Below, piece after piece: positions 7,687 through 63,709 of a DNA stretch of 64,000 nt (positions within the stretch are counted from its first letter, which is position 1; the number at the start of each line of letters is the position of its first letter). The position numbers and the translations under genes were made by a program. The notes beneath the pieces are model-generated. The model was not told the origin of the DNA, made no database searches, and saw only the letters and a program-made list of their open reading frames with translations. The stretch spans positions 1-64,000 of the forward strand of contig NZ_JAFUAG010000031.1 of assembly GCF_017464355.1 (NCBI RefSeq). Reading direction: 5' to 3'. This DNA comes from Ruminococcus sp. GTDB lineage: Bacteria > Bacillota > Clostridia > Oscillospirales > Ruminococcaceae.

Positions 7687-8473
7687 AGAATTGGTTTTGC
7701 GCTTTGAAAACGGAGACAAGGCTGCGCTGGGCGAGATTTATTTACAGCTTGATAAATTCATCAAGTCGATTGTCAATGACGTTATGAAAAAGTTCGGGCT
7801 AAGCAATGAGGACCTGGAGGACGAGCTGTTTCAGGTTGGCTCTGTAGAGCTTATAGAGACTGTTTACAAGCACAGTTATGACCCGAACAAGGGCAGCTTT
7901 ACATCGCACATTTATCCCTATCTGCGGCTTGCGATGGTACGGCACGTTGAACAATTCATAACGCCTGTTGCCATAGCGCATAAGGATTTATTGGCTATCA
8001 GCAAGTGTAGGAAAATGCACAGGGACGGAATGACTGATGAGAGCATTGCAAACGAGCTTGGTATCAGTAAACAGCTTGTGGCAAGGTATCTGCGGTTTTC
8101 GTTCAAGACTGAGAGTATTATGCTTACGCTCAACGATGAGTACGGCGAGGAATATCTTGAAAATCCGAAACTTATTTCAAAAGAACCCCAGCCAGACCAC
8201 GCTGCTTATGTGAAGGGATGTGCCGAGAGGCTGAAGCTGTTGTTTGATAAGCTATCACCTAAACAACAGCAGATAATCGGAAGCTTCTTCGGGGCTTACG
8301 GCTATGAGGAGATGACCATCGAGAATATTGCCAATTTTGAGCTTATGACTCAGGATGCTGTCAAGAAACAAAAGCATGAGGCTATGGAGCTGCTTTATTA
8401 TTGGTACTGGCATTTCAGCGAGCTGAGGAAGTTCAGAGAGGCTTGGTGGGCAGTCCAGGATATGACGAATTGA
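7676..8473 (+). CDS. Sigma-70-family factor, island-encoded
   Basis: 265 residues. Region 2 lies in residues about 5-90 (ENGDKAALGEIYLQLDKFI.., LRLAMVRHVEQFI), a region-3-like helix-turn-helix follows (MTDESIANELGISKQLVARYL), and region 4 near residues 185-240 (LSPKQQQIIGSFFG.., MTIENIANFELMTQDAVKKQ). It overlaps the DUF6076 gene by 11 bp. Small sigma-like factors of this sort often run mobile-element genes in Clostridia; its target promoters are not visible here. Confidence 0.7.
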   Translation: MTNEELVLRFENGDKAALGEIYLQLDKFIKSIVNDVMKKFGLSNEDLEDELFQVGSVELIETVYKHSYDPNKGSFTSHIYPYLRLAMVRHVEQFITPVAIAHKDLLAISKCRKMHRDGMTDESIANELGISKQLVARYLRFSFKTESIMLTLNDEYGEEYLENPKLISKEPQPDHAAYVKGCAERLKLLFDKLSPKQQQIIGSFFGAYGYEEMTIENIANFELMTQDAVKKQKHEAMELLYYWYWHFSELRKFREAWWAVQDMTN

Positions 8474-8522
8474 GCTGATTTTACCATTTGGGGCTAAAAA
8501 ACGACCGTTTGTGCCAAAATGC

Positions 8523-8551
8523 TTGTATTTTTCTGTAAAAAATGGTATAAT
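8523..8551 (+). promoter_or_regulatory. Sigma-A promoter of the ECF sigma/anti-sigma pair
   Basis: TTGTAT (8523-8528), 17-bp spacer, TATAAT (8546-8551), 33 bp before the ATG at 8585. Confidence 0.7.
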
Positions 8552-8584
8552 CACATAATAACAACTATCGGGGAAGTGACACCT

Positions 8585-9115
8585 ATGATACCGATGATAT
8601 ATATGGAACTCATCGATGATGAGGAGGATAAAAAGGCTTTTGAAAAGCTGTATAACAAATACAAGAACAAGGCATATCTCGTTGCAATGGACTGCTTGAA
8701 TAACAATTCACTTGCAGAGGAATGCGTATCGGAAACCTTTTTATCCATTGCAAAAAATTTTCAGACTGTTAACAAATTAGAATCTAACAAACAGCTCAAA
8801 TATATCGTCATAAGTATTAGAAACACAGCAAAGGATGCTTTGAAGAAAGAAAAAATCAATCTGAACACCGAAGAATATAATGATGAGAATTATTATTTGG
8901 AAGACAGTTATTCGGAATTTGATATTATTGCGTGGAGATCTTGCATTAGTCAGCTTAGTCAAACCAATAAGGATATACTGTATTTAAGGTGCATATTAAA
9001 TCTTAATTATAAAGAGATTTCCCAAATACTTGGTATAAGTCAGGGCGCAGCGAGAGCAAGAGCCTTTGCCGCTAAAGAAAATCTAAAAAAACTGTTAGAA
9101 AAGGAGGACTCATAA
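8585..9115 (+). CDS. ECF-type RNA polymerase sigma factor
   Basis: 176 residues from ATG 8585 (GGGGAAGTG upstream). Region 2 spans about 12-80 (KAFEKLYNKYKNKAYLVAMDCL.., AEECVSETFLSIAKNF), region 4 about 115-170 (QLSQTNKDILYLRCILNLNYKEISQILGIS in two parts, GAARARAFAAKENLK). Its stop codon overlaps the ATG of the next gene, which encodes a membrane anti-sigma-like protein, so the pair is a standard ECF switch. The AT-rich base use continues through the following secreted-protein and lipoprotein genes, which may be its targets. Confidence 0.85.
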   Translation: MIPMIYMELIDDEEDKKAFEKLYNKYKNKAYLVAMDCLNNNSLAEECVSETFLSIAKNFQTVNKLESNKQLKYIVISIRNTAKDALKKEKINLNTEEYNDENYYLEDSYSEFDIIAWRSCISQLSQTNKDILYLRCILNLNYKEISQILGISQGAARARAFAAKENLKKLLEKEDS

Positions 9116-9801
9116 TGGAATGCAATGATCTATTTCTACGGGCACTTGAAGAAACATATGACGATGAATTTGAAGACTATATGAGTTCCCTTGAAGAAAG
9201 ATACGGATGTGAACACATTTTTGGTACTAAGCATAACAAGGAAATGGCAAAGCTTATTAAACGTCAGCGAAGGCCGTATTTCAAGCTGATAAGTTCAACA
9301 GGACGCAGGGCAGCCTGCATAATTATTGCGTTTATTGTTATGTCTGCTTCGGCATTAAGTGTAAAAGCAATTCGTGAAGCAATCTTCGATTTTATTACGA
9401 ACATTTTCTCAGATCATAATGTTGTGACCACAGAGAGTGAAACAGACATAGGTTATCCCACAACTATTGAAGAAGAATACTTTATATCCGAGCTGCCCGA
9501 CGGCTTTGAAGAAATGGACAAAGAGAAAACAGATAACTCTATTGATATTTCATATTTCAGAAATGATGAATATGTTTTCTTTACTCAATATACAAAGGCG
9601 GCATATGAACAAACCTACGATAATGAACGCAGTGAATTTAATGAATATACAGACAGCGATGGCGAACAATATATGGTCATCACAAACAAAAGTGGAATAA
9701 CGTATATATGGGATAATGGAAGATACATATTTGAAATCACAAGCAACTTGGACAAAGAATATACTCTGAAATTGTGCAAGTCTACAAAAGTTAAATCTTG
9801 A
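9115..9801 (+). CDS. Membrane anti-sigma factor-like protein with DUF4367-type domain
   Basis: 228 residues. The cytoplasmic N-terminus (1-60) would bind the sigma factor. One membrane segment lies at about 66-85 (ACIIIAFIVMSASALSV), and the extracellular part (about 110-225) has the DUF4367 pattern: ISELPDGFEEM, FFTQYTKAAYEQTYDNE, YIWDNGRYIFEI. It starts on the last base of the sigma gene (TAATG), so expression is coupled. No zinc-binding HxxxCxxC is visible. Confidence 0.7.
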   Translation: MECNDLFLRALEETYDDEFEDYMSSLEERYGCEHIFGTKHNKEMAKLIKRQRRPYFKLISSTGRRAACIIIAFIVMSASALSVKAIREAIFDFITNIFSDHNVVTTESETDIGYPTTIEEEYFISELPDGFEEMDKEKTDNSIDISYFRNDEYVFFTQYTKAAYEQTYDNERSEFNEYTDSDGEQYMVITNKSGITYIWDNGRYIFEITSNLDKEYTLKLCKSTKVKS

Positions 9802-9828
9802 CCTAACAAATTGACAAGAAGTGTCGTC

Positions 9829-9877
9829 ATAGAGTGTAGAGAGGGATAACTATTCCCACTCTGCACTCTATTTTTTT
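9829..9877 (+). terminator. Strong intrinsic terminator after the anti-sigma gene
   Basis: An 18-bp near-perfect stem (ATAGAGTG.. at 9829 pairing with ..CACTCTAT up to 9871) is followed by seven Ts. Confidence 0.9.
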
Positions 9878-9891
9878 ATAAAAGGGGGGAA

Positions 9892-10320
9892 ATGATGAAA
9901 CGCATATTGGCTATTTTGCTGTCGTTTGTTATGTCATTAGGAATGGGTATCTCTGCATATGCTTTACCCGAAGAAGAAACACCCATTGATATTGAATTTG
10001 TTGATGAATATAGCTATACTGATAAAATATCATCTGACATGTCAATTTCAAACAATACAGCCACCTGTAAAAGCGTAGTACGGGGAGATACAAGCTTGGC
10101 AACGAAGATTGTTATTACGCAGACGTTGCAAAAGAAAAATGGCAATTCATGGACTAATGTGACAAGCTGGAGCAAAACATTTAATACATGGTATGCAATG
10201 TATAGCAATTCAAAATCGTCATTAAATAGTGGCACATATCGTCTTAAAACCGTTGCAAAGGTCTACAGCGGCAACAATTATGAGACGATAACAGTTTACA
10301 GCAGAACAGCTTCTTGCTGA
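9892..10320 (+). CDS. Small secreted protein, unknown function
   Basis: 142 residues, with AAAGGGGGGAA before the start. The signal peptide covers about 1-24 (KRILAILLSFVMSLGMG..AYA). The mature part is rich in Ser, Thr, Asn and Tyr and looks all-beta (NTATCKSVVRGD, TLQKKNGNSWT, SGTYRLKTVAKVY). Two cysteines, near residue 59 and at the C-terminus, could form a disulphide. It follows a strong terminator and precedes another secreted protein of similar character. Confidence 0.6.
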   Translation: MMKRILAILLSFVMSLGMGISAYALPEEETPIDIEFVDEYSYTDKISSDMSISNNTATCKSVVRGDTSLATKIVITQTLQKKNGNSWTNVTSWSKTFNTWYAMYSNSKSSLNSGTYRLKTVAKVYSGNNYETITVYSRTASC

Positions 10321-10369
10321 ATTGAAAACGCTTTATGCAGGAAGGAATGTGATGATACATATGATTTGA

Positions 10370-10391
10370 AAGTATACAGTACTGTATACTT
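10370..10391. promoter_or_regulatory. Perfect 22-bp palindrome, probable operator
   Basis: The half-site AAGTATACAGT (10370-10380) is followed directly by its exact reverse complement (10381-10391). It lies in the 201-bp gap before the secreted protein at 10522. A second short palindrome, CAGACT-TT-AGTCTG, is at 10450-10463. Confidence 0.6.
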
Positions 10392-10521
10392 GGCGCGGTC
10401 AAGTATCGGGACTGGCTCAGTTGTTGCTTTTAAGCGGATTTTAAGAATACAGACTTTAGTCTGGGAATGTTGCGTTACATCTTATGATGAACGTATTATA
10501 ATTATGAAGGAGGGTTTCATT

Positions 10522-10917
10522 ATGAAACTTAATAAGAGAATTGCAGCTATGGGTGCTGCTGTTATGATGATGGTGTCAATGTCAGCTTTAAATGCAAGTG
10601 CTGCTACCATCAACATTACTAAAACCATTTCTGGGTATAGCACTACTTGCAGTGCTGAAAGATCAGGAAACAGCATATACGTTTCTACTTCTATTTCAAG
10701 CAATTCAGTAGCAACAACTGTTTCTGTTTCTGCTACATATAAGCATAACGGAGTTTATGTTCCAGTTGGAAATGGCAATGGTGGACCTGGGGGGTGTACA
10801 ACTCCAGTTAGTAAGCCCTCTGGAAGTACATGGGATTCTATATCCACCACTCATGGAGTTTCTTCTTCCTCTAAAACTATTACCGATGCTGAATGGAAGA
10901 ATAAAGGATTAATCTAA
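10522..10917 (+). CDS. Small secreted protein, unknown function
   Basis: 131 residues from ATG 10522, which has AAGGAGG at ideal distance; an upstream frame to 10366 is not supported by a ribosome site. The signal peptide ends near residue 29 (MMMVSMSALNASA). The mature protein is Ser/Thr-rich and probably all-beta, with a glycine-rich loop GNGNGGPGG and two cysteines. It shows no enzyme motif. Secreted beta-proteins encoded beside an ABC exporter can be bacteriocins or surface proteins; I cannot tell which. Confidence 0.6.
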   Translation: MKLNKRIAAMGAAVMMMVSMSALNASAATINITKTISGYSTTCSAERSGNSIYVSTSISSNSVATTVSVSATYKHNGVYVPVGNGNGGPGGCTTPVSKPSGSTWDSISTTHGVSSSSKTITDAEWKNKGLI

Positions 10918-10931
10918 TTGTATAATCTTCT

Positions 10932-11019
10932 GGCAGCCTCTAAAAGCCATAATTATTCAAATATTGCTGGTTTAAACCCCTATAAAGTCACTGTGTAAAT
11001 GAGACTTTTAGAGGCTGCC
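10932..11019. repeat. 15-bp perfect inverted repeat with a 58-nt loop
   Basis: GGCAGCCTCTAAAAG (10932-10946) is repeated exactly in reverse complement at 11005-11019. It begins 15 bp after the stop of the secreted protein. It could be a terminator with a long loop or the ends of a tiny non-coding insertion. Confidence 0.55.
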
Positions 11020-11046
11020 TTATATTGATAAATAAGCATTGTCTTG

Positions 11047-11090
11047 AAACACAACGAGAGAATGCCACACATTCTTTTGTTGTGTTTTTA
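11047..11090 (+). terminator. Terminator-like hairpin just before the lipoprotein gene
   Basis: AAACACAAC (11047-11055) pairs with GTTGTGTTT (11079-11087) followed by TTTA. It ends 20 bp before the start codon at 11110, so it may limit read-through into the lipoprotein genes. Confidence 0.55.
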
Positions 11091-11109
11091 TTATTTGGAG
11101 GGCGTTATT

Positions 11110-12660
11110 ATGAAGAAACTTACAATATTAATCCTATCTATATTTCTTTTGACTGGCTGTTCTCAAAGCCAAACAGAAGAACCATCAAGTAATGATAAAA
11201 CAGAAAATTCTAAAAACTCAGAAAAACCTGTAACAATTATAGTAGACGATACTGAAGATGAACAAGTGGATTATTATTTACGTTCATATGATGAAAAATA
11301 TGACTATTGCAAAGAGAACTATCCTAATAAAGCCGTATTGACATGGTTAACCGATTCATATGAGAGGTATGAGTTAGAATTAAATGATTATCTGTATAAT
11401 AACAATTATGATTATGTAATTTGTTTTAAGGAAATAGATGCTTTTTCGGCAAATACTCCTGATAGTACATACCTAGATGTCATTGAAAATATGGTTAATA
11501 GCGGTGAAAATTTCGATATACTCTGCAATTTTGGAGTGTGTTTAGGAGCAGATGCCGTTTCTAACAGCTATTATTATTTGTCTGAAAAAGGTATATATGA
11601 GCCTTTGGACGATTATATTACTGACGAAAAGTATTCCGATTATTACAAACTACTTCCGCAAAAATATTGGGATTCATATAAATATCAGGGAAAAATATAT
11701 GGTGTTGACAACAGCTACTCTACACTCTATTCTGATTATGGAATAGCAATATACAATGATCTTTTAACTGAAAGCGGGATCGATCCGAAAACGTTTGGCC
11801 AATCATTATCTGAATCTTCACAAGCATATAAAACATTATACGATAAAACCGGAAAAAGCGTTAATTTTTATCGTTCCTTTTTTACTGAGGATATTTTAAC
11901 GGCAAATTATATAGTTAGCGGAATAGCAATTTCTGACGGGAATGTAATTAATGTGTTTGAACAGCCTGAAACAAAGGCTTACTACGATATTTTGAAGGCT
12001 CTTGCAGATGATAACTATATTACGATTAATTCCGATTCGGATTTTATGGCGTCTGGATATGACGTGCAAGATAAAGGAACAAATGGAGAAATAATACGGA
12101 ATGACAATACAGGAATAACAAAGATTTATAACCAAATAAATAATTACATATGTACCCCGACAAATGCAATCGGTGTTTACTCGAAATCCGCAAACAAAGA
12201 TTTAGCGGTTGATGCTTTACTCAATGTTGTTTTCAATAAGGAAATAAATAATATAATCACTTTTGGTATTGAAGGTGAGCAGTATGTACTCAAAGACGGA
12301 ATAGTTGAAATGAATGATGTTGATGAGAACAATATCAGCAGTTCTGTAGACATTACCTTTAATAACCCTTTAATCTCATATCAATGTTACCAACAGAATG
12401 ATGAGATCATTTCGTTTGACTATTATGACTTGTATGAAGAAGCAGAATATTTAGAAGATGTTGGTTTTCTCTTTGATGGCTCAAATATTGCCGATACATA
12501 CAATAATGTTGTTAGCAAAATAATGGAATTTAATCCAGCAAGCGATGATATGGATTCATATCTAACAGATTTTAATAAGCAGCTTGATGAAGCAGGTTTG
12601 CAGATGGTTTTAGACGAAATCAATAAACAACTGGGGGAATATGATGAAGAGAGCTATTAG
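11110..12660 (+). CDS. Solute-binding-protein-like lipoprotein
   Basis: 516 residues from ATG 11110 (GGAGGGCG upstream). The lipoprotein signal MKKLTILILSIFLLTGC ends at Cys17. A low-complexity acidic linker follows, then a region with the fold pattern of family 1 extracellular solute-binding proteins (YEPLDDYI, YKYQGKIYGVDNSY, IAIYNDLLTESGIDP). It is longer and much more acidic than the sugar-binding protein at 21106. No matching importer permeases lie nearby; the downstream ABC genes are of exporter type. It may therefore sense or bind a ligand instead of feeding an importer. Its last 20 bp overlap the next gene. Confidence 0.65.
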   Translation: MKKLTILILSIFLLTGCSQSQTEEPSSNDKTENSKNSEKPVTIIVDDTEDEQVDYYLRSYDEKYDYCKENYPNKAVLTWLTDSYERYELELNDYLYNNNYDYVICFKEIDAFSANTPDSTYLDVIENMVNSGENFDILCNFGVCLGADAVSNSYYYLSEKGIYEPLDDYITDEKYSDYYKLLPQKYWDSYKYQGKIYGVDNSYSTLYSDYGIAIYNDLLTESGIDPKTFGQSLSESSQAYKTLYDKTGKSVNFYRSFFTEDILTANYIVSGIAISDGNVINVFEQPETKAYYDILKALADDNYITINSDSDFMASGYDVQDKGTNGEIIRNDNTGITKIYNQINNYICTPTNAIGVYSKSANKDLAVDALLNVVFNKEINNIITFGIEGEQYVLKDGIVEMNDVDENNISSSVDITFNNPLISYQCYQQNDEIISFDYYDLYEEAEYLEDVGFLFDGSNIADTYNNVVSKIMEFNPASDDMDSYLTDFNKQLDEAGLQMVLDEINKQLGEYDEESY

Positions 12661-13777
12661 TATAATAACAGCAGCAGTCATTATACTTAGTTTATCCGCA
12701 TGCAAAAACAATGAAGCATCTAAATCTGATTGGAGAATTGTGTCGTCAAACAATCTTGTCGAACCAGAAAAAAATGGAATGTTTATAACAAATACATATA
12801 GCTCGCTGAGTTTTTTGGACTTCTCTACAATGGAGCAAGCGCCTGTATGCGATGACCCTACCTGTATGCATCAAGTTGATAGCGGCTGTACTTCCTATGG
12901 TAAGGAGAATCACCCTTTTTTATATGGTGATAAGCTGTACTATTTAAAGCGTTCTGACATTTACCAAGATAAAGATATTTATATTAATGACACTCAACTA
13001 TGGCAGAGCGATATAAATGGTGCGAATGAAAAATTGGTTACAGAATTTAAAAAGCTTGATTATAGTTCTTATAACAATATGGTTCTTTATGGGGATACAA
13101 TATATATGTGTATGGAATATAAGCCTTTTGACAAGGATTATAATGAACTTGAACATGCCGAGAAGTTTGTGACCTATAATTTGAAAAGCGGTAAAACAAA
13201 GAATTACGGAGATATCGTAAAAGGTTATGTCTGCAGTTCAGATATAATAGGTGTGTGGGATAATAAAGTTATTTTCAGAATCTCAAATTCAAAAGAGAAT
13301 CTTCCTTACATGGAATTGGTTGAGAAATATGCTAAAGATAATGGAGTCCCACAAAGTGAGGCAATGACAGCGGTAGTTAATGAATATGATACTATTTATT
13401 GGCAGTTTGACATTTCAGAAAAAAGTATTTCTGAATCAATGCTTTCATCACCAATGGCAATTTCAAAGAACTGCTATTACTATTCTGAAGAAGACAAGAT
13501 CACATATCTCGATAAAGACGGCAATGAAAATATAATAAATGGGATCATCGATATTAATGATGCTCAAATTCATGACGGATATGTATATTTTTGTAATCAT
13601 GATGAAGATAACCCATCAGCTTATTTGTTTAATGAACAATCAAAAGAAGTTACAACACTCGATAATAACTATGTCATTTCAGCTATCAGTAATGATACCG
13701 TGATTCTGCAAATAATTGATGATAAGAATGGCACATTATCTTATGAAAAAAAAGCCATTTCTGAAATTGAAAAATAA
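12641..13777 (+). CDS. Lipoprotein with CxDPxCxH motif, beta-propeller-like
   Basis: About 378 residues; the second ATG (12644) has the better distance from GGGGG. The lipobox is ILSLSAC. The motif CDDPTCMH followed by CTSYG is common in Clostridia lipoproteins that pair with ABC systems. The rest has repeated strand units (DKLYYLKRSD, DTIYMCMEY, DGYVYFCNHD) suggesting a beta-propeller. It overlaps the preceding lipoprotein gene by 20 bp, so both are made together. Function unknown. Confidence 0.6.
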   Translation: MMKRAISIITAAVIILSLSACKNNEASKSDWRIVSSNNLVEPEKNGMFITNTYSSLSFLDFSTMEQAPVCDDPTCMHQVDSGCTSYGKENHPFLYGDKLYYLKRSDIYQDKDIYINDTQLWQSDINGANEKLVTEFKKLDYSSYNNMVLYGDTIYMCMEYKPFDKDYNELEHAEKFVTYNLKSGKTKNYGDIVKGYVCSSDIIGVWDNKVIFRISNSKENLPYMELVEKYAKDNGVPQSEAMTAVVNEYDTIYWQFDISEKSISESMLSSPMAISKNCYYYSEEDKITYLDKDGNENIINGIIDINDAQIHDGYVYFCNHDEDNPSAYLFNEQSKEVTTLDNNYVISAISNDTVILQIIDDKNGTLSYEKKAISEIEK

Positions 13778-13874
13778 TTAAAATGAACAATATGAAGTTT
13801 TTTAGGTGATCGCAAAGTTGCCTTTAAACTGAGCTTAAAAAATCATTATAAAAGATATTTGATGGAGAATAGTT

Positions 13875-14753
13875 ATGAATGATAACGGAAATACATACTT
13901 ATCTCTTTATAAAATAACCAAGCAATACGGCGCCTTCACCGCTCTCAATGATTTTACCTACGATTTCACTCCCGGAGTATACGGTCTGCTCGGCCCCAAC
14001 GGCGCAGGCAAATCAACGCTCATGAATATCATCACCGACAACCTCAAACCCACCTCCGGTACGGTGAAATTCGACGGCATGAACACCTCCGATATGGACG
14101 AGGATTTCCGCAAAATACTTGGCTTCATGCCCCAGCAGCAGGGACTATATCCTAACTTCACTCTGGAACGTTTTCTCTACTACATGGCGGCTCTAAAGGG
14201 CATGAAAAAGCGTGAAGCAAAGGAAGATATTGAGCGGTTGATCGGGCTTGTAAATTTAGATAGCGCACGTTCAAAAAGGCTGGGCGGCTTCTCAGGAGGA
14301 ATGAAGCAGCGTGCGCTTATCGCACAGGCTATGCTTGCCGACCCTAAGATAATAATCCTTGACGAGCCGACAGCGGGCCTTGACCCGAAGGAGCGCATCC
14401 GCATACGAAATCTCATCGCAGAGATAGCATTCGAGAAAATAGTTATCATTGCAACTCACGTTGTTTCAGATATCGAATTTATCGCAAAGGAGGTCCTGCT
14501 GCTAAAACAGGGCGAGATAATCGGCGCGGGAAAGCCACATGAACTTTGCGATAAGATAAGCGGAAATGTGTTCAACATTACTGCAAGCGAAACGCAGCTG
14601 TCCGAAATTTCGGACAAATACAAAGTCGGCAACATCTCAAAGGACGAACAGCATATCTTTGTCAGAGTCATCTCAGATAACGCTCCCAAAGGTTATGAGT
14701 ACGAGGTCTGCAAGCCAGATCTGGAGGATTTGTACCTCTACTATTTCGATTGA
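13875..14753 (+). CDS. ABC transporter ATP-binding protein
   Basis: 292 residues. Walker A GPNGAGKST (about 44-52), Q-loop MPQQQGLYP, signature FSGGMKQR, Walker B IIILDEPTAGLDP and the H-loop ATHVV are all intact. The C-terminal 70 residues form the extension typical of ABC-2 exporter ATPases. The permease gene starts nine bases after its stop codon. Base use is richer in GC than in the lipoprotein genes upstream. Confidence 0.9.
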   Translation: MNDNGNTYLSLYKITKQYGAFTALNDFTYDFTPGVYGLLGPNGAGKSTLMNIITDNLKPTSGTVKFDGMNTSDMDEDFRKILGFMPQQQGLYPNFTLERFLYYMAALKGMKKREAKEDIERLIGLVNLDSARSKRLGGFSGGMKQRALIAQAMLADPKIIILDEPTAGLDPKERIRIRNLIAEIAFEKIVIIATHVVSDIEFIAKEVLLLKQGEIIGAGKPHELCDKISGNVFNITASETQLSEISDKYKVGNISKDEQHIFVRVISDNAPKGYEYEVCKPDLEDLYLYYFD

Positions 14754-56422: not shown

Positions 56423-57196
56423 CTATGCTTTCAGCAGGGAAGACATGGGCTGGAAAGACACGCATTTGCCTCTGCTGTGCATTTTAACAAGGGCAAGGGG
56501 CAGGCATACGGCCACCAGGGCAATGCCCACATACATCAGGTATCCGTTGGCAAGTATAGTCTTTGCAAAGGGGGCGGCTGCCATGGTAACAAGGTTGGCA
56601 GAGATGTGGAAAGCCAGGCAGTAGACTACGTTCTTGGAAAGGATATAGATAAGGCTGATGATGATACCCACAAGGATAAGGTCAATGGCGCGGGCAGAAG
56701 TCCTGGGGAAGTGCAGGCCGATCCAGGGCAGGACGGTGATGATAAGGGCAGCAGCTTTTTTCTTATTGCTCTTGCCTGCGGCGATGAGCAGTACGGTCAT
56801 GGCGCCCAGGCGGAAGATGAGTTCCTCTGCCAGGGGGTTTATGCATACGGTAGTCACCATGATGTATATCTCCTTGAAGCTGCCGTCAAGGGTGCCTGTT
56901 TCAAAGGTGTGTCGGTTGGCAATGAAAACATCTGCCAGGGACCAGGCGAGCCCTGCAATGGTTATCAGGGCAAAGGTCAGGGGGACGGGCTTGCTGAAGG
57001 AGCTTGCGGTATCGACCTTCAGCAGCTTTTTGTTGGCAAGTATGCAGATAAGTCCGCCGATAAGGTAGCAGAAGGGAATGGCATAGGATTCAAGGGAAGG
57101 GTCTGCCATACTGACACATACAGCCCCTAACAGAGGCAGTATGCCCAACAACATCATCAAAATGGAATATCCAACAGCGCTTTTAAAATTTTTCAT
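56423..57196 (-). CDS. CPBP-family intramembrane metalloprotease
   Basis: 257 residues with about seven membrane segments. The CPBP (Abi) motifs are present: NPLAEELIFR (motif 1, EExxxR), a GLHF motif with His (WIGLHFPR) and CLAFHISANL (motif 3). Related proteases act in prenyl-protein processing or bacteriocin immunity. AAAGGAGAG precedes ATG 57196. It lies 15 bp downstream of a second, diverged CPBP gene. Confidence 0.85.
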   Translation of the reverse strand: MKNFKSAVGYSILMMLLGILPLLGAVCVSMADPSLESYAIPFCYLIGGLICILANKKLLKVDTASSFSKPVPLTFALITIAGLAWSLADVFIANRHTFETGTLDGSFKEIYIMVTTVCINPLAEELIFRLGAMTVLLIAAGKSNKKKAAALIITVLPWIGLHFPRTSARAIDLILVGIIISLIYILSKNVVYCLAFHISANLVTMAAAPFAKTILANGYLMYVGIALVAVCLPLALVKMHSRGKCVSFQPMSSLLKA

Positions 57197-57210
57197 GATG
57201 TAACTCTCCT

Positions 57211-57987
57211 TTACTGTGTAACGGGAACGACCCTGATCTGTACATTGCCGTTCTCTTTGTTATTTTTGAAAAGCTTGACTATCTCCCGTATCAGGCAGGC
57301 GAATACTATGACAGCTGCGGCTATGGCGGCAGCCAGCGGCAGGGGGCTGCTGAAAGGTCTTGCTGTCAGCAGTATCACGGTGGTCATGATGTTGCTTGCT
57401 GCATGATTTAAAATGCACAGCCTGAGGCAGCCTGTCTTCTGGTAGATAAGGCTGGCTATGAGGCCTGAGACAGTCAGACGGAGGATAGCACTTGCGGTGC
57501 TGTAGCTGTGGGGAATGATCCATGCAGCAGTGGTGATGACCGCTGTCAGCACACCCAGTATCTTTGACTCTGAACCACGCTTGATGATGTGGGTCATAAG
57601 GCAGCGGCAGATAAGTTCTTCGGCTATAGGCGCCAGCAGCATGGCATTCAGCTGCTTGGTGAGATCAAAGGGTATCTCCTCATCAGCGGCGCCGTAAAGC
57701 AGGAACATGGCATTTACCAGAGGCACCATGGCGCCTGCAAGTGTAAACCAGATATACAGCTTAGCGGGAGCCTTGCCCTCTTTGGGTATATCCACATCGC
57801 TTTTCTTTCTGAAAAGCACAAGGGCAAGCAGAGCGCCTGCAAGTGTCAGTGCCATGGTAAGGTACCTGAAGGTGAATTCAAAGCTCCCCGTAACTACCTT
57901 GCATACTGCCATGCCCACGGCAAGGGGCAGTATGGTAAACAGACCCAGAATAGCCAGGTCGCGTATCGTCAGCATAATTCTTTTCAT
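57211..57987 (-). CDS. CPBP-family intramembrane metalloprotease, second copy
   Basis: 258 residues from ATG 57987 (AGGAAAG six bases upstream); an in-frame ATG at 58005 is also possible. Motifs: LAPIAEELICR, AWIIPHSYS and LCILNHAASNIM. Membrane topology is like its neighbour's, and the two probably arose by tandem duplication and divergence. No substrate is visible. They point towards the AgrA/AgrC-like genes on the other strand. Confidence 0.83.
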   Translation of the reverse strand: MKRIMLTIRDLAILGLFTILPLAVGMAVCKVVTGSFEFTFRYLTMALTLAGALLALVLFRKKSDVDIPKEGKAPAKLYIWFTLAGAMVPLVNAMFLLYGAADEEIPFDLTKQLNAMLLAPIAEELICRCLMTHIIKRGSESKILGVLTAVITTAAWIIPHSYSTASAILRLTVSGLIASLIYQKTGCLRLCILNHAASNIMTTVILLTARPFSSPLPLAAAIAAAVIVFACLIREIVKLFKNNKENGNVQIRVVPVTQ

Positions 57988-58119
57988 GTTGATCTTTCCT
58001 TTCATGTTGTTTTCTGCTGTGATTACGTTATACCACGTTTTGCCGTAACTATCAACAAATTCACGGTGAACGGTAGATCAAATCGGCTGAACGGTATTTG
58101 TGTGTCTCAGCAGAGGTTA

Positions 58120-58148
58120 TTGATTTTTCGGGGGAGGTGTGTTATAAT
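58120..58148 (+). promoter_or_regulatory. Promoter of the gene at 58187
   Basis: TTGATT (58120-58125), 17-bp spacer, TATAAT (58143-58148). Confidence 0.8.
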
Positions 58149-58186
58149 TGCCAATAAAGATATATCAAAGATGTGAGGTGCAGACT

Positions 58187-58618
58187 ATGTCAAGAGAAGC
58201 ATATTTTACAATGGATCTCAGCCTGTATTCGGAAAATATCACGGATATCATTGCCGCCTTCAATAATGCAGGCTGGGGCTGGCGGGACGAGGTAAAGGAA
58301 TATCTGCCCCTGCACGATGATGATATGTTCGGCTATCAGGAGGAGAAGATACCTGTTGAACAGCTGTTTTCTGTCATAAAAAGTAAGCAGGAATGCGGCG
58401 AGCTTTGCGGTGTCAGGCTTTATCACCGTTACTCTGACAGGGGTATCGTCTTGCTGGTAAAAAATACCAAAGAGGTCATGGTGAGCATTGATATAAACAG
58501 AAAACTGCTCTGCGGTGACTTTACGGATATATCCTGGTATGTGGAAAATATCGCGGCTAAACTGGAAGAAGCAGGCTGTACTGTCTTCTCGCTGGAATAT
58601 CATGAATATATCGGATAG
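58187..58618 (+). CDS. Hypothetical protein, 143 residues
   Basis: ATG at 58187 with GAGGTG upstream. An alpha/beta protein without membrane segments; it has GWGWRDEVKEYLPLHDDDMFG and YVENIAAKLEEAGCTVFSL in part. It has its own promoter and no operon partner. Not recognised. Confidence 0.65.
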   Translation: MSREAYFTMDLSLYSENITDIIAAFNNAGWGWRDEVKEYLPLHDDDMFGYQEEKIPVEQLFSVIKSKQECGELCGVRLYHRYSDRGIVLLVKNTKEVMVSIDINRKLLCGDFTDISWYVENIAAKLEEAGCTVFSLEYHEYIG

Positions 58619-58709
58619 AATATGACCTGACTGATGGCTGTAAGGCGCACCTGCGCTTTGCAGCTTTTTTCTGTGCAGGGAAAATGTGAATGATCTATCT
58701 GAGCATATC

Positions 58710-58738
58710 TTTACAATTGTTAAAATATATGATATAAT
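58710..58738 (+). promoter_or_regulatory. Promoter of the two-component pair
   Basis: TTTACA (58710-58715), 17-bp spacer, TATAAT (58733-58738), 20 bp before the ribosome-bound start at 58758. Confidence 0.85.
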
Positions 58739-58757
58739 ATATACGGAGGAGATAAAC

Positions 58758-59459
58758 ATGAAGATAGCAATATGTGATGACGAAAAACCTATGCGCAGCC
58801 TTCTTCGGCAGAAGATAGCTGCCCGTTCGGGTAATATAAAGATCACAGAATTTTCCGACGGCAGCGAGCTTTTGAATTCAAAGGAGAGCTTCGATATAAT
58901 TTTTCTTGATATAGAGATGCCCCGACTTGACGGTATGGAAACAGCTGCAAAGCTGAGGTCTGCGGGGTTGGATTCGCTGATGATATTCCTGACCAGCCAT
59001 GAGGAATTCGTGCGGGACGCTTTCAAGGTGAAGGCTTTTCGTTTTCTGCCAAAGCCCGTGGACGAAAGGGAACTTAATGAAGCCATGAATGAAGCCGAAA
59101 AAGAGCTTTCCTCGCAGGACAAGCTTATAATCGAGCAGCGGGGGAGGATATACGAGGTGCTGACCTCAGATGTGCTTTACATCGAAGCTTACGGCGACGG
59201 CACATATATCTATGATAACGCAGGCAATGTCTACGACAGCAAAAAACAGCTCAACCAGTGGGAGGAAGAGCTGTCGGGACATGGATTTTTCAAGATACAT
59301 AGATCTTATATGGTATCTCTGGGGCAGGTGGCTAAGATAGAGGGTGCCACTGTTACGCTGGCAGGGCTGCAAAAGCCCCTTAGTGTCAGCCGCAGGAACC
59401 TTTCCGCATTTAAAGAAGCTTATCTTGACCATGTCAGAAAAAATGCCCGTGTGATATAG
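58758..59459 (+). CDS. LytTR-family response regulator (AgrA/LytR type)
   Basis: 233 residues from ATG 58758 (GGAGGAG upstream). Receiver domain: ICDDE acidic pair, FLDIEMPRLDG with the phospho-acceptor Asp near residue 52, FLTSHEEF, and the conserved Lys in FLPKPVD. LytTR DNA-binding domain (about 135-230): VLYIEAYGDGTYIY, FFKIHRSYMVSLGQVAKIEG in part and LSVSRRNL. The kinase gene follows after 12 bp. Such regulators usually bind pairs of direct repeats. Confidence 0.93.
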   Translation: MKIAICDDEKPMRSLLRQKIAARSGNIKITEFSDGSELLNSKESFDIIFLDIEMPRLDGMETAAKLRSAGLDSLMIFLTSHEEFVRDAFKVKAFRFLPKPVDERELNEAMNEAEKELSSQDKLIIEQRGRIYEVLTSDVLYIEAYGDGTYIYDNAGNVYDSKKQLNQWEEELSGHGFFKIHRSYMVSLGQVAKIEGATVTLAGLQKPLSVSRRNLSAFKEAYLDHVRKNARVI

Positions 59460-59471
59460 GAGAAGAGCGTA

Positions 59472-60791
59472 ATGGATATGATTCTTGACAATATAGTATT
59501 GAATAGGATACTTGCCTATACACTTGATTTTATAAAGCTGTTCGTCATCGAAGTGGGGATATTCGGCTACAAGCCCAAAAAGAACTGGAAAGCCCCTGCG
59601 GCAGCGCTGGCATTTACAGCAGCATTTATAGTCGCAGCCCAACTGACAAAGCATAACACGGGGTTATCGGCTCTTATTCAGCTGCTGTATCTTATGTCAA
59701 ATGCCATTACTATTTCACTGACATTGGAGGGCAGAAAAAAGCTGATAGTCAGCTTTGCGGTATACTGGTGTATAAATGTGTTTGATGATATCTTTACGTT
59801 TATAGCGGCGAATATACTGGGGATGTCATATCAGGAACTCTTAGGGGACTTATTCCTGAAACACACGGCTATGCTGCTCTCATTGGCACTTTATACGCTC
59901 ATAACCGTTATTATCGTATATTTCAGAAAAAGAAAAGGTGATGACAAGGTAGATATCAAAGAAAGCAGCAGCCTGTATTTTGTCGTTCTTCCGCTTGTTA
60001 TTATAGCAATGTATTTCCTGGGGGCCTCCGGAAAGTTAGGATCCAAAAGCTTCAGTGAAGGCATTCCCGGCTATATTCTGATGACAGTCGTATTGAGCGT
60101 ACTTTTTGCTATTATCATATATACCAATGCTTCAAAAAAATATTATGAGAACAGCAATCATGTAAATGAAAAGATAAAGGAATCTCAGAAAGCCTACTAT
60201 GAGGGTATGCTGGAGAGAGAGAAAGAGACCAGAAAATTCCGCCACGACATAAACAACCATGTGTTGTGTCTGAGGACCCTGCTGGACGACGGAAAATACG
60301 ATGAAGCAGAAGAGTATCTTTCAAGCATGGAAAACAGGACGGAAAACCTGCGCCCCACAGTATCAACGGGCAGCGAGCTTGTCAATGCCATAACGGGGGA
60401 TCTTATGTCCCGCCACGAAAACGTAAGCCTTGAATGGGAGGGTCATCTTCCCGAATATATGGATATCTCCGACATGGATATCTGCACTATATTCTCGAAT
60501 ATACTGGATAATGCCTTCACTGCCGCCGCCAAGTGCGAGGCGGGCAGGGTAAGGGTGCGCACCGCCGCCGCAGGGCCAAGCCTGATGATAACGGTGGTCA
60601 ATGATATCCCTGAGCCCATACAGCTCAGGGACAGCAAGCTTGTGACCTCAAAGCCCAACAAGCGCAACCACGGCTTCGGTGTTATGAATGTAAAAGAATG
60701 CGCCGAAAAAAACGGCGGCAAGGCAGAGTTTTCCTTTGACGAAAAGCAGTTCACCGCCGAGGTCATTCTGCCAGGGGCAATAAACATCTGA
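59472..60791 (+). CDS. GHKL-type sensor histidine kinase (AgrC-like)
   Basis: 439 residues. Six membrane segments in the first 220 residues form the sensor. A dimerisation region has the phospho-acceptor His in FRHDINNHVLCL, and the GHKL ATPase domain carries the N-box FSNILDNAFTAA and the G-box HGFGVMNVKECA. This layout is that of peptide-sensing AgrC kinases. No AgrB/AgrD peptide genes are nearby, so the signal is unknown. Confidence 0.9.
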   Translation: MDMILDNIVLNRILAYTLDFIKLFVIEVGIFGYKPKKNWKAPAAALAFTAAFIVAAQLTKHNTGLSALIQLLYLMSNAITISLTLEGRKKLIVSFAVYWCINVFDDIFTFIAANILGMSYQELLGDLFLKHTAMLLSLALYTLITVIIVYFRKRKGDDKVDIKESSSLYFVVLPLVIIAMYFLGASGKLGSKSFSEGIPGYILMTVVLSVLFAIIIYTNASKKYYENSNHVNEKIKESQKAYYEGMLEREKETRKFRHDINNHVLCLRTLLDDGKYDEAEEYLSSMENRTENLRPTVSTGSELVNAITGDLMSRHENVSLEWEGHLPEYMDISDMDICTIFSNILDNAFTAAAKCEAGRVRVRTAAAGPSLMITVVNDIPEPIQLRDSKLVTSKPNKRNHGFGVMNVKECAEKNGGKAEFSFDEKQFTAEVILPGAINI

Positions 60792-60801
60792 ATAAAACGA
60801 C

Positions 60802-60842
60802 AGCCCGCCTGACTGCCATGCGCAGCTTGACGGGCTTTTTTC
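60802..60842. terminator. Terminator between the kinase and the sigma-fusion gene
   Basis: AGCCCG (60802-60807) and inner bases pair with CGGGCT (60831-60836), followed by TTTTTT. Confidence 0.8.
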
Positions 60843-60870: not shown

Positions 60871-62727
60871 TCAATAATTATTCGAGCGGCCGTATCTGAA
60901 GCCGTCAGAAAAACCTATTATGCAGGTGCATACAGGGTCGATGCCCAGATCCGACAGGTCAACATATGCAGGATCCATTATGTTGAAATCAGGCTTGGTA
61001 TCTGCCATATACGCATATATCCGATCTGTCTGTTCTTCTGTCAGGTCGTATGCCAGATAGTAGTTATGGCCGTCAAGCTCGACCTCCGAGCAAACCGAAA
61101 TAAAGGAGTTCTCATTTCTTACAGTAAGTGTACCGCCTTTGACAGCCTTTATCTGTTCATAGGTCATACCCGTGGAGATACCGCCTATCTCAGTGCCGTC
61201 GGCTATCTCTATCTGAGAAATGCTGCCTGCAAAGAATATGGTGCAGGTCTGACCGTTCAGTTCGGTGGTGTAGCCCCCATCGACAGCGCCGTCTTCAATG
61301 TAATTCGGTGCATAGAATACATATGAAGGGAATGCCTTGCATTTGATACCGTAGGACTGGCTCTGTGTACCGGTCAGCGGAACAAGTTCAAAGTCGTTGT
61401 TGGAAAGTTCTATCAGAGCGGAAGGGCTCATGGTCAGCATTTTATCTACACTCATTTCCACGGGAAGTGTTTCCTTCTTCTCCTCGGGCTTTGAGCTGTC
61501 ATCGGGTGCAGAGGTGGTGGTGTTCTCGGTGCGGTTCTCAGTGGTGACTATATTTGCACCTGAACTTTTGCTGCTGTCAGCCTTGCTCTTGGCAGCCTCT
61601 TTATCGGCGGCTTCCTTCTTGGCGGCCTCTTCATCGGCAGCTTCCTTCTTGGCTCTTGCCACAGCGTCAGCACGCAGGGCATCGAGGTCCATGTTCAGCG
61701 ACTTGCCGTTGCCGGAGGTGCTTGCTTTTGAAGATGATGAGTCAGCCTTGCTGTCTGCTGATGCCTTGCTGTCAGAGGACTTTGAGGAGTCCTCATCTTT
61801 TTTAGCCGCACTGACAGTTTCATCGGGTCTGCTCTCGATAGTTTCCAGTACCTCGCCATCAGAGTCGGTGATGTCAGCTGTCAGGCTGGAGTCATTAGTG
61901 TGGCTCACAGTAAGATTTGCGCTGCTGTCAAGTATCCTGGTGTCGCCTGTGCTGCCGTTTTTGTTGCTGTCCATAAAGTGCAGCCCCACGGGAATGCCAA
62001 TTATCAGCAGAACAGCTGCGGCAGCTGCTGCCGCCTTGCCTGCCACAAGTCCGCCGCTTACTGCTGCGGAGGAGCTTACCTTAGCTGCTGCTGCATACTT
62101 GGGAGATACGCACTTGTGCAGCATTCTTCCCATAGGTACAGCGCACATTGCCACGCCCTGCTGCTGAAGCTTTTCTATCTCGGCTCTCAGCTTTTTGCGG
62201 GCCTGGAAAAGCTTCTGCTTTACAGCGTTCTGGTTGAGCCCCAGTGCCTTGCCGACCTCAGCGGCACTCATGTCATCGTAGTAATACATTATCACCGCAG
62301 ACTTCATATCAGGCTTAAGGCCGTCTATTATAGACATCAGCTGTCTTGCGGTATCTCTGTTGGTGGCATGATCTTCGGGCACCATAACAGGCTCGTTGAG
62401 GGCCAGGTTGTCCATGACAGCCTCCTGCTCCTCCTCGCTGTCGAAGTAAGTGCTGCGGCTCTCGCTGCGGAACATATCAGCACACTTGTTGTAAGCTATG
62501 CTGTGTATCCAGGTCAGGTAATTCTCGGGCTTCTCCAGGGTGTGTATCTTCTCCATGGATTTAAGGAAGGTATCGTGGGTGATATCCTCAGCCACATCTT
62601 CACGCCCTACATTTTTCAGTACAAAGAAATATACTCTGTCGGAATACTCGTTGTAAAGTGTTTCAAAGGCCTTCTTGCTGCCGTTCTTAGCTTCCTCTAC
62701 TATGTAGATAAGTTCACTCTTCTTCAT
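60871..62727 (-). CDS. Membrane-tethered ECF-type sigma factor with extracellular domain
   Basis: 618 residues. Sigma region 2 at about 12-90 (NGSKKAFETLYNEYSDRVYFF in part, AEDITHDTFLKSMEKI, YLTWIHSIAYNKCADMFR), region 4 at about 130-185 (LKPDMKSAVIMYYYDDMSAAEVGKAL in part, NQNAVKQKLFQARKKL). A single membrane segment at about 231-250 (AAAAAAAVLLIIGIPVGLHF) follows. Outside lie a Ser/Asp/Lys-rich linker with an EAAKKEAADKEAAKS coil (about 260-435) and a folded C-terminal domain (about 440-618). The normal anti-sigma's membrane and sensor parts are thus fused to the sigma itself, so release probably needs proteolysis. A 48-residue ORF overlaps its start, and two ECF-type promoter motifs lie upstream. 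Confidence 0.88.
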   Translation of the reverse strand: MKKSELIYIVEEAKNGSKKAFETLYNEYSDRVYFFVLKNVGREDVAEDITHDTFLKSMEKIHTLEKPENYLTWIHSIAYNKCADMFRSESRSTYFDSEEEQEAVMDNLALNEPVMVPEDHATNRDTARQLMSIIDGLKPDMKSAVIMYYYDDMSAAEVGKALGLNQNAVKQKLFQARKKLRAEIEKLQQQGVAMCAVPMGRMLHKCVSPKYAAAAKVSSSAAVSGGLVAGKAAAAAAAVLLIIGIPVGLHFMDSNKNGSTGDTRILDSSANLTVSHTNDSSLTADITDSDGEVLETIESRPDETVSAAKKDEDSSKSSDSKASADSKADSSSSKASTSGNGKSLNMDLDALRADAVARAKKEAADEEAAKKEAADKEAAKSKADSSKSSGANIVTTENRTENTTTSAPDDSSKPEEKKETLPVEMSVDKMLTMSPSALIELSNNDFELVPLTGTQSQSYGIKCKAFPSYVFYAPNYIEDGAVDGGYTTELNGQTCTIFFAGSISQIEIADGTEIGGISTGMTYEQIKAVKGGTLTVRNENSFISVCSEVELDGHNYYLAYDLTEEQTDRIYAYMADTKPDFNIMDPAYVDLSDLGIDPVCTCIIGFSDGFRYGRSNNY

Positions 62728-62860
62728 TTATAATGCCCTCCGTGATCATTTTTTCAGTCAGTGTTTCAAGCTGGGTCTTCTTTTCCTCGGCAGTCATGGC
62801 ACTCTCTTGCTGCATCTGCGTCAGCAGACGTTTCATCAGCTCGTCGAAATCAATATCCAT
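62714..62860 (-). CDS. Small acidic protein (48 residues) coupled to the sigma fusion
   Basis: ATG at 62860 has GGAG seven bases upstream. The product starts MDIDFDELMKRLLTQMQQES, is helical and acidic and ends GIINEEE. Its last 14 bases overlap the start of the sigma-fusion gene, so the two are translationally coupled. It may regulate the sigma factor or serve only as a leader for coupled translation. Confidence 0.6.
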   Translation of the reverse strand: MDIDFDELMKRLLTQMQQESAMTAEEKKTQLETLTEKMITEGIINEEE

Positions 62861-62932
62861 TTTCTGTCTCCAATTCTCGTATCAATGATGCATCTTGATA
62901 AGCGTCAGGTGGAATTCTCACCGCTTACATTG

Positions 62933-63063
62933 ATTAGACGTTTGGTTTTCCAAAAGGTTATAAGTTTTTCGGAAAAATATTTTTCGTCCCGCAGGCTTTG
63001 TTTTCCGCCTGCAAAAATTAGACGCTCGGTTTTCCAAAAGGTTATAGGATTTTGGAAAAATTT
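62933..63063 (-). promoter_or_regulatory. Two tandem ECF-type promoter motifs
   Basis: On the minus strand both copies read TAACC-TTTTGGAAAACC-.. with AAC, exactly 16 bp, then CGTCTAAT: copy A AAC 62959-62957 and CGTCTAAT 62940-62933; copy B AAC 63043-63041 and CGTCTAAT 63024-63017. AAC-N16-CGTC is the classic ECF promoter pattern. About 45 bp around each copy are nearly identical. Each copy also contains an inverted repeat TTTTCC../..GGAAAA. Confidence 0.7.
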
Positions 63064-63133
63064 TATGAAGACAAAAGATATCCCGTATATAAGATGTTCC
63101 TGCCCTTAAAAAAGTTTTAACAGCCCGCAGTTC

Positions 63134-63574
63134 TCACAGATATTTTTTCATGTACCCGGGCGCATACAGCACATACCCGTGCTTCGGGTAGAAGCTGTAG
63201 GACTCATGCCAGACCTTTTCGTCCCCGCCTAAGTGTACCTTTGATATGAGTATGCCGTTACCGCGCATATGCTCCTCAGCATATTTCAGCAGGGTAGTGC
63301 CTATGCCCCTGCGCTTGCGCTCTGCCTTAACATAAAACCTGTGGAGAAAAGCTTCCGTCGGCACCTCTGTCCGTGAATAACCGAGGCAGCCAAGCAGCCC
63401 GCCTTTTTCATCAACTCCCAAAAAGAACATATCGCCCTTGTCGAGATAGTTCGCTTTGATATCGTACATATCCTCCCTGACAGCCCCGTCAAGCCCCATG
63501 GCTATCCGTGATGCTGAGACCATTTCGATGAGCGCCGCTTTATAGCTGTCGTCGTATACTATTATAGTCACCAT
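63134..63574 (-). CDS. GNAT-family N-acetyltransferase
   Basis: 146 residues, with AAGGAG before ATG 63574. The acetyl-CoA-binding motif A reads FYVKAERKRRGIGTTLLKYAEEH (about 80-102), with RRGIG as the pyrophosphate loop. A C-terminal SFYPKHGYVLYAPGYM matches motif B. Substrate unknown. Confidence 0.88.
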   Translation of the reverse strand: MVTIIVYDDSYKAALIEMVSASRIAMGLDGAVREDMYDIKANYLDKGDMFFLGVDEKGGLLGCLGYSRTEVPTEAFLHRFYVKAERKRRGIGTTLLKYAEEHMRGNGILISKVHLGGDEKVWHESYSFYPKHGYVLYAPGYMKKYL

Positions 63575-63622: not shown

Positions 63623-63709
63623 TGGTGCAGGTAAGAAGACTTGAACTTCCACGACCTTGCGATCACTAGCACCTGAAGCTAGCGCGTCTGCCAATTCCGC
63701 CATACCTGC
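63623..63709 (-). tRNA. tRNA-Leu(CAG), intact host copy
   Basis: 87 nt with encoded CCA, acceptor stem GCAGGTA/TACCTGC, anticodon CAG and variable arm with GATCGCAAGGTC. Both halves are identical to the gene split by the island (261-295 and 17088-17139), so it also holds an intact copy of the island's integration site. Confidence 0.96.

Follow-up and report, generated by a model that had tools for sequence, protein, structure and literature searches.

A membrane-tethered ECF sigma factor gene of Ruminococcus with tandem self-type promoters and an overlapping micro-protein gene

Single-chain sigma factors and the Ruminococcus locus

In systems of extracytoplasmic function (ECF) sigma factors, the sigma factor and its membrane inhibitor are normally separate proteins, as the initial annotation of the present locus correctly stated, but fusions of the two have precedents (PMC8999054). 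IutY of Pseudomonas putida (ECF243), which acts in iron cell-surface signalling, is described there as a sigma/anti-sigma fusion freed by regulated intramembrane proteolysis, and proteolytic release is expected for ECF48, ECF52 and ECF53. In these three groups of Actinobacteria, represented by SCO4117, a sigma part is followed by a membrane helix, a low-complexity linker and an outer domain; SCO4117 is autoregulatory, and ECF52 is described as exclusive to Actinobacteria (PMC5826349). ECF262 (reference SFB89493.1, Ruminococcus albus) is placed among the ECF groups with regulatory extensions, with its mechanism given as "others" (PMC8999054). In the SigI/RsgI system of Clostridium thermocellum, the outside is sensed by a membrane protein that RseP cleaves within the membrane helix (PMC12203970). 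Sigma and anti-sigma are separate proteins in that system. SigI is not known to be an ECF sigma factor of the build discussed here. We have analysed a stretch of 64,000 nucleotides from Ruminococcus sp. (the window; positions 1 to 64,000 of contig NZ_JAFUAG010000031.1, assembly GCF_017464355.1), which carries a gene for a 618-residue membrane-tethered ECF sigma factor, preceded by two ECF-type promoter sequences and overlapped at its start by a gene for a 48-residue micro-protein (Table 1). We consider it probable that the locus encodes a one-protein transmembrane signalling switch, which would amplify itself through its own promoters and would have the micro-protein as a partner.

The order of parts read from the sequence at the outset (sigma regions 2 and 4, membrane segment, linker and outer domain in one chain) was confirmed by Pfam, a hydropathy scan and a structure model. 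The protein scores 88 bits against TIGR02937 (cut-off 42.9), ECF structures rank top in the fold search, and sigma2 and sigma4 are its sole promoter-binding domains, as is characteristic of ECF (group IV) factors. The full-length model has a mean predicted local distance difference test (pLDDT) score of 62 and is usable for the sigma part and the outer domain, not for the tether and linker. As in the ECF52/ECF53 type, a membrane helix and an outer extension follow the sigma part. By sequence, a promoter of the AAC/CGT type, as expected of an ECF (group IV) factor, stands before the protein's own gene. A co-transcribed separate anti-sigma gene is absent, the next downstream gene being convergent; such a gene is no longer counted as defining for ECF factors, according to PMC8103513.

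The likeness to IutY lies in having the sigma and the membrane anti-sigma parts in one polypeptide (PMC8999054). IutY, however, belongs to a Gram-negative cell-surface signalling system and has a FecR-like part, whereas the FecR family is absent among the five Pfam matches of the window protein up to an E value of 1; the passages on IutY in PMC8999054 mention neither a micro-protein nor a promoter array. The ECF48, ECF52 and ECF53 proteins share the arrangement of the chain but are described as carrying a zinc-finger domain, and ECF52 also a carbohydrate-binding domain; neither family was matched in the window protein, the zinc-finger (ZAS) family being likewise absent among those five matches. 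ECF262 comes from the same genus and is listed with a regulatory extension (PMC8999054), and the window family is quite possibly ECF262 itself; the open-licence literature yielded no further relevant paper under that name. Because single-chain tethered ECF sigma factors and the ECF262 extension have already been described, we regard the architecture as known in kind. For the micro-protein, the promoter arrays and a sigma-FtsX fusion described below, nothing was found in print in the open-licence literature.

Promoters and their probable reader

The two copies of AAC-N16-CGTCTAAT predicted upstream of the sigma gene are exact and 84 bp apart. With up to one mismatch allowed, this pattern had a mean of 0.61 occurrences in shuffles of the whole window. 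Identity between the copies is 25/27 in the core, 14/20 in the preceding A/T-rich stretch and 9/18 directly after the core, and falls to 6/25 farther downstream and 7/40 farther upstream; viewed as one ungapped repeat, the pair extends over 56 nt at 80% identity. The window has three places with near-repeats of 27 bases in the same direction (at least 25/27, spaced by 30-200 bp), the promoter pair being one of them. A search of the whole assembly (3.48 Mb, 91% complete), as the initial annotation had proposed, found AACC-N15-CGTCTAA at these two sites only, and a consensus scan of minus-strand positions 62861-63133 gave no housekeeping-type promoter.

Relatives were compared by using a close set of 13 sigma genes (alignment A2, the window's included), from which G025:C155 was dropped because a contig end cuts its upstream region. 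The 520 bases 5' of each start were scanned for AACC-N14-17-CG(T/A)C(T/A)(T/A)A, a pattern widened after inspection of the relatives (spacer of 14-17, T/A at three places), with 300 shuffles each. The motif is present before all 13 genes, with 24 sites found against 0.06 expected from the shuffles, and the nearest site in the 12 relatives lies at -162 to -275 from the sigma start. Multiple copies (2-5) in the same direction precede 6/13 genes: in addition to the window's pair, there are five copies in G003:C10 (65-67 bp apart), three in G013:C30 (67-69 bp), two each in G005:C37 (131 bp) and G003:C25 (130 bp), and three by the pattern in G005:C70, or four with an AACT copy, one copy there being followed by AAAT. 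When a tree was built from the sigma parts, G005:C37 and G003:C25 fell together, with high support, inside a set of relatives that have one copy each, whereas G003:C10, G005:C70 and G013:C30 form a separate, well-supported group; the branch of the window is long and its placement is not settled by the tree. Because the arrays sit in separate clades, tandem self-type promoters must have arisen at least two times, probably three.

The base that varies within the -10 element points to the reader of these promoters. Among 14 genes (the close set and a homologue from G239), 11 have CGTC and three have CGAC (L109, L111 and L133, the last from another genus). The residue seven after the conserved sigma2 Trp is His in all three CGAC genes, and Asn (9) or Arg (2) in the CGTC genes (Fisher p 0.003, a statistic that ignores kinship); sites without AACC were left out of this count, except for two copies in the arrays of L098 and L103-type loci. 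In the open complex of sigmaH, N88 hydrogen-bonds exactly this variable base, and the authors, noting that His and Arg occur at the N88 position in other sigma factors, suggested a role in specificity (PMC6411747). Residue 80 (Asn) of the window protein stands at the same distance of seven from its Trp (Trp73) and, by comparison with W81/N88 of sigmaH, is predicted to read the variable base. Since covariation and the positions of the motif agree, self-recognition of the promoters by the tethered sigma factor is the best reading and is strongly supported by comparison among relatives.

Several results weigh against this reading. The strict form AACC-N15-CGTCTAA has 25 matches in the 29 genomes of the genus, fewer than the 33 of a reversed control, so that only its position is striking: 15 of the 25, including the two of the window, lie just 5' of such sigma genes. 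No convincing motif was found before the distant family genes G009:C33 (two), G020:C8 (second gene) and G021:C6, and the strict form is missing before the three long ECF paralogues of the window genome, one of which is preceded by a looser, CGAC-like site. His-type sigma factors of other subfamilies (L113, L117 and L138) have AACC...CGTC with different following bases, and adding these with L089 and L174 weakens the covariation to p 0.02. Five further loose matches in the window genome all end in CTTA rather than CTAA, no convincing target was recognized when their nearest downstream open reading frames (ORFs) were inspected, and a control pattern was commoner there than the loose motif (9 vs 7). 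A wider regulon in this genome was rejected on that inspection.

Three observations in relatives concern the motif elsewhere. A VanW gene of G023 (L158:2626-2674) has AACC-N15-CGTCTAA 22 bases 5' of its likely start and is a candidate target of a tethered sigma factor; VanW had no match in the 91%-complete window assembly. In L159:5599-7077, a lipoprotein-like gene (410 residues) with a related outer domain, as judged by eye, is preceded by three CGAC-type promoters and adjoins a CGTC-type sigma gene; from its residue, the His-type sigma factor G023:C12 of the same genome should read the CGAC sites. In L152:1946-2376, the promoter motif is followed by a micro-protein-like N-terminus that merges into other sequence (116 residues), and no long sigma gene lies within the stretch fetched.

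The overlapping micro-protein gene

The 48-residue ORF predicted to overlap the sigma start was confirmed, and its ends are fixed among relatives: a start at -133 and a stop at +14 are identical in 10/13 close genes, and the ends in G009:C53 and G014:C4 differ by a few bases. Selection was examined by the ratio of nonsynonymous to synonymous differences per site (pN/pS) in 11 of 12 micro-ORFs (that of G014, of other length, was left out), with pS up to 0.95. For the window against its ten relatives, pN/pS is 0.40-0.60 in frame, compared with 0.70-1.57 and 1.32-2.52 in the shifted frames, and in-frame values are 0.22-0.81 in those 53 of all 55 pairs whose pS is at least 0.15; one shifted frame is also below 1 in many pairs. 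The products share the motif DEL..LL.QM, and 12/14 of those examined are acidic, the window's having a net charge of -8.

A profile of the micro-proteins gave 29 matches in 17 of the 29 genus genomes, 14 of these matches being the sequences that built it, and 26/29 abut or overlap a long sigma gene (the others are G026:C54, G003:C26 and G023:C43). A family sample of 247 genomes gave matches in three, of which two belong to the genus, with the window's own included, and more diverged micro-proteins precede many other family members, including those of two further genera. An ORF of 33-65 residues lies at the start of 43/56 long sigma genes (at least 380 residues) and of 1/20 ordinary ECF genes. 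This tally is by position only and excludes four fragments classed "unk"; L004, L048, L058 and L149 look like chance, the real one of L087 was given the wrong frame, and L009, one of the 56, is without a membrane segment. On these comparisons of ends, selection, profile matches and position, the micro-ORF is a conserved coding gene, which supports the coupled micro-protein of the initial annotation.

No known family was found for the product in Pfam, and the 14 micro-proteins scanned gave no coherent family, at most three members sharing any one. Its candidacy as a class-I anti-sigma domain was tried by hhalign, in which 15 micro-proteins were compared with ten N-termini, each from a protein whose gene adjoins a canonical ECF gene (hand-picked, some trimmed to a later Met; L006, L010, L012, L049 and the second L055 excluded) and was rejected, a result that also counts against a partner role. 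Because a single column was aligned, at a probability of 0.05% that the best of 60 column shuffles exceeded, we claim no homology between the two.

Our best guess is that the micro-protein binds the sigma part or the tether. The main competing explanation, which we hold to be clearly less likely than a working product, is that the ORF merely couples translation or serves as a leader and that its product is functionless. The constant 14-base overlap in the ten close genes, a GGAGG ribosome site for sigma inside the micro-ORF, and G023:C46, which has the sigma gene and promoter but manages without a micro-ORF, favour that explanation; the case of G023:C46 also weighs against the partner reading. 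In-frame constraint, the shared motif and profile matches to further genes at the equivalent position are not what a functionless product would lead us to expect.

Tether, outer domain and mode of signalling

Of the long sigma-like proteins examined, 25 with that of the window, 24 have at least one hydrophobic segment after sigma4 (L019 is the exception; the first 450 residues were used for each, and the window protein in full). In the alignment, a juxtamembrane motif (CAVP or similar) is common to most members, far relatives included, and the outer parts vary. An outer domain akin to that of the window protein (33% identity, E 2.2e-13) was found in L157 (G011) on a separate 358-residue protein with a hydrophobic stretch, where the gene order (L157:1775-4529) is a separate 201-residue ECF sigma factor, the outer-domain protein and a YkuD L,D-transpeptidase. 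Because the domain sits there on a separate protein beside an ECF sigma factor, the C-terminal tail of the window protein is, from this comparison, very probably a fused anti-sigma/sensor, which supports what had been proposed from the window alone. In L154-L156 (G003, G005 and G025), the domain is carried by lipoprotein-like proteins encoded close to an ECF gene and the gene next to it, and a VanW-like gene lies directly 3' in L154 and L155 (Pfam for L154); these neighbours are a hint of the cell wall.

Beyond the sigma part, Pfam gave no family in 9/10 relatives scanned, and FtsX in the tenth. A profile search of the outer domain against PDB gave two matches only, short or weak, and the fold matches were also weak: the N-terminal part of 4ifa/4h0a, which we take to be like the CAP-associated N-terminal domain, DUF4309 (4ygt) and YfeY (2qzb). 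This lack of a match does not establish a new fold. The protein of L030:1501-3615 (G014) seems, by eye, to contain two copies of the outer domain.

A subfamily of 1117-1201 residues, L134, L135, L136, L137 and L138 (G015, G027, G020, G022 and G021), consists of an ECF sigma part with a C-terminal extension. In the two members scanned (L134 and L138), the sigma part is joined to an FtsX-like ATP-binding cassette (ABC) permease; an ATPase-like gene lies directly 3' in L135, L137 and L138 (Pfam for L138), and all five members have a micro-ORF overlapping the start of sigma. This subfamily looks like a transporter joined to a sigma factor of its own.

Release of the sigma part by proteolysis is proposed by analogy, because of IutY and ECF48/52/53 and of a Peptidase_M50 gene in the window genome, which is not specific evidence for release. 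It is unlikely, in our estimation, that the tether inhibits by holding sigma at the membrane and that a signal shifts its conformation so that sigma works while tethered, without cleavage. The conserved juxtamembrane segment would suit such a mode, but most close relatives have a GIP or GVP turn inside the membrane segment or where it ends, which would fit the preference of site-2 proteases. For IutY, the single-chain example on which data exist, release depends on Prc and RseP (PMC8999054).

That another ECF sigma factor, namely a paralogue, mainly reads both promoters, and that the gene is a cascade target rather than self-amplifying, seems quite unlikely. The genome has several other ECF sigma factors, including three long ones that, like the window's, have a membrane segment (548, 616 and 657 residues), which would make such a cascade conceivable; the motif nevertheless accompanies this sigma group in every close gene, its strict form does not accompany those three, and the variable -10 base tracks the group's own sigma2 residue. 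It is very improbable that the repeats are RNA hairpins or operators for another regulator, since, although the distal copy has a perfect inverted repeat, TTTTCCAAAA/TTTTGGAAAA, that overlaps its -35 region, and an imperfect one overlaps the proximal copy, the RNA fold of 62861-63010 is no better than shuffles (z -0.98), Rfam has no match in 62600-63200, and relatives that keep AACC...CGTCTAAT do not, by eye, keep the inverted repeat.

In the signalling switch that we favour, the C-terminal extension would keep the sigma domain of the same chain inactive at the membrane, standing in for a membrane anti-sigma factor. The conserved juxtamembrane segment, the membrane helix, the flexible linker, which may span the wall, and the outer sensor domain make up this extension, whose anatomy is established and whose anti-sigma role is presumed. 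A signal, probably at the cell envelope, would cause the sigma part to be cut off and set free; this part would then read promoters of the form AACC-N15/16-CG(T/A)CTAAT, starting with the one to five copies upstream of the sigma gene itself, and the number of copies may set the strength of the positive feedback. The acidic micro-protein, made together with sigma, would most likely bind sigma or the tether, and may keep new sigma quiet or aid assembly. A more specific and tentative form of this reading is a split anti-sigma factor, in which the sensor and tether are fused to sigma, the co-translated micro-protein is the masking part, the gain of the positive feedback is tuned over evolution as whole copies of the self-promoter are gained or lost, and the sensor of one subfamily is an FtsX-type ABC permease. 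The interpretation given in the initial annotation is partly supported as a whole, in its promoters and self-amplification, its fused sensor and its micro-protein gene; self-amplification, a guess there, has become a well-supported inference through the relatives.

On one side of the sigma gene lies a GNAT gene (63134-63574) and on the other a sensor-kinase gene in convergent orientation (59472-60791), each identified by Pfam. The region 56423-60791 beside it encodes two CAAX-type (Rce1-like) membrane proteases, a LytTR response regulator and a GHKL sensor kinase, an agr-like make-up. Two tRNA-Leu genes, both with anticodon CAG and in opposite orientation, lie near the window ends (423-509 and 63623-63709), and G+C falls to 33-38% at 8001-14000 (three successive 2-kb blocks), nearly all other blocks having 44-56%. 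In a plasmid search, 673 records matched, none with more than 60% identity or more than 80% coverage, and the matches cover the sigma part only among the ten matches listed.

Table 1. Features of the sigma locus, with positions in the window
Feature	Positions	Strand	Basis
Membrane-tethered ECF sigma factor gene, 618 residues	60871..62727	-	ORF list, Pfam, structure model, fold search
Sigma region 2, residues 24-91	62455..62658	-	Pfam PF04542, above cut-off
Sigma region 4, residues 128-180	62188..62346	-	Pfam PF08281, above cut-off
Conserved juxtamembrane segment (CAVPM..L..SPKY.AA), residues 189-226	62050..62163	-	Alignment
Transmembrane segment, residues 227-245	61993..62049	-	19-residue hydropathy scan (single hydrophobic segment), alignment
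Low-complexity Ser/Lys/Glu/Ala linker, residues 263-424	61456..61941	-	Model: mostly pLDDT <50, one helix 348-383
Outer (extracytoplasmic) alpha/beta domain, residues 425-612	60892..61455	-	Model of residues 421-618, mean pLDDT 88; homologues
Micro-protein gene, 48 residues, stop 14 bases inside sigma gene	62714..62860	-	ORF list
Proximal ECF-type promoter AACC-N15-CGTCTAAT	62933..62959	-	Exact match; begins -232 from sigma start
A/T-rich stretch just 5' of proximal promoter (UP-element-like; presumed role)	62960..62979	-	Twin at 63044-63063
Distal ECF-type promoter AACC-N15-CGTCTAAT	63017..63043	-	Exact match
Terminator-like hairpin 3' of sigma gene	60797..60819	-	Pattern scan; weak, 6 in region vs 2.9 expected

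The locus offers a compact testable model in which the inhibitor is built into the same chain as the sigma factor, and an example of a tiny overlapping gene that travels with a sigma gene through a genus. The natural pairing of Asn or Arg with T and of His with A gives a ready system of residue swaps for testing ECF -10 recognition, and promoter copy number may set the gain of the feedback. For Ruminococcus, these genes point to a set of unexplored envelope sensors.

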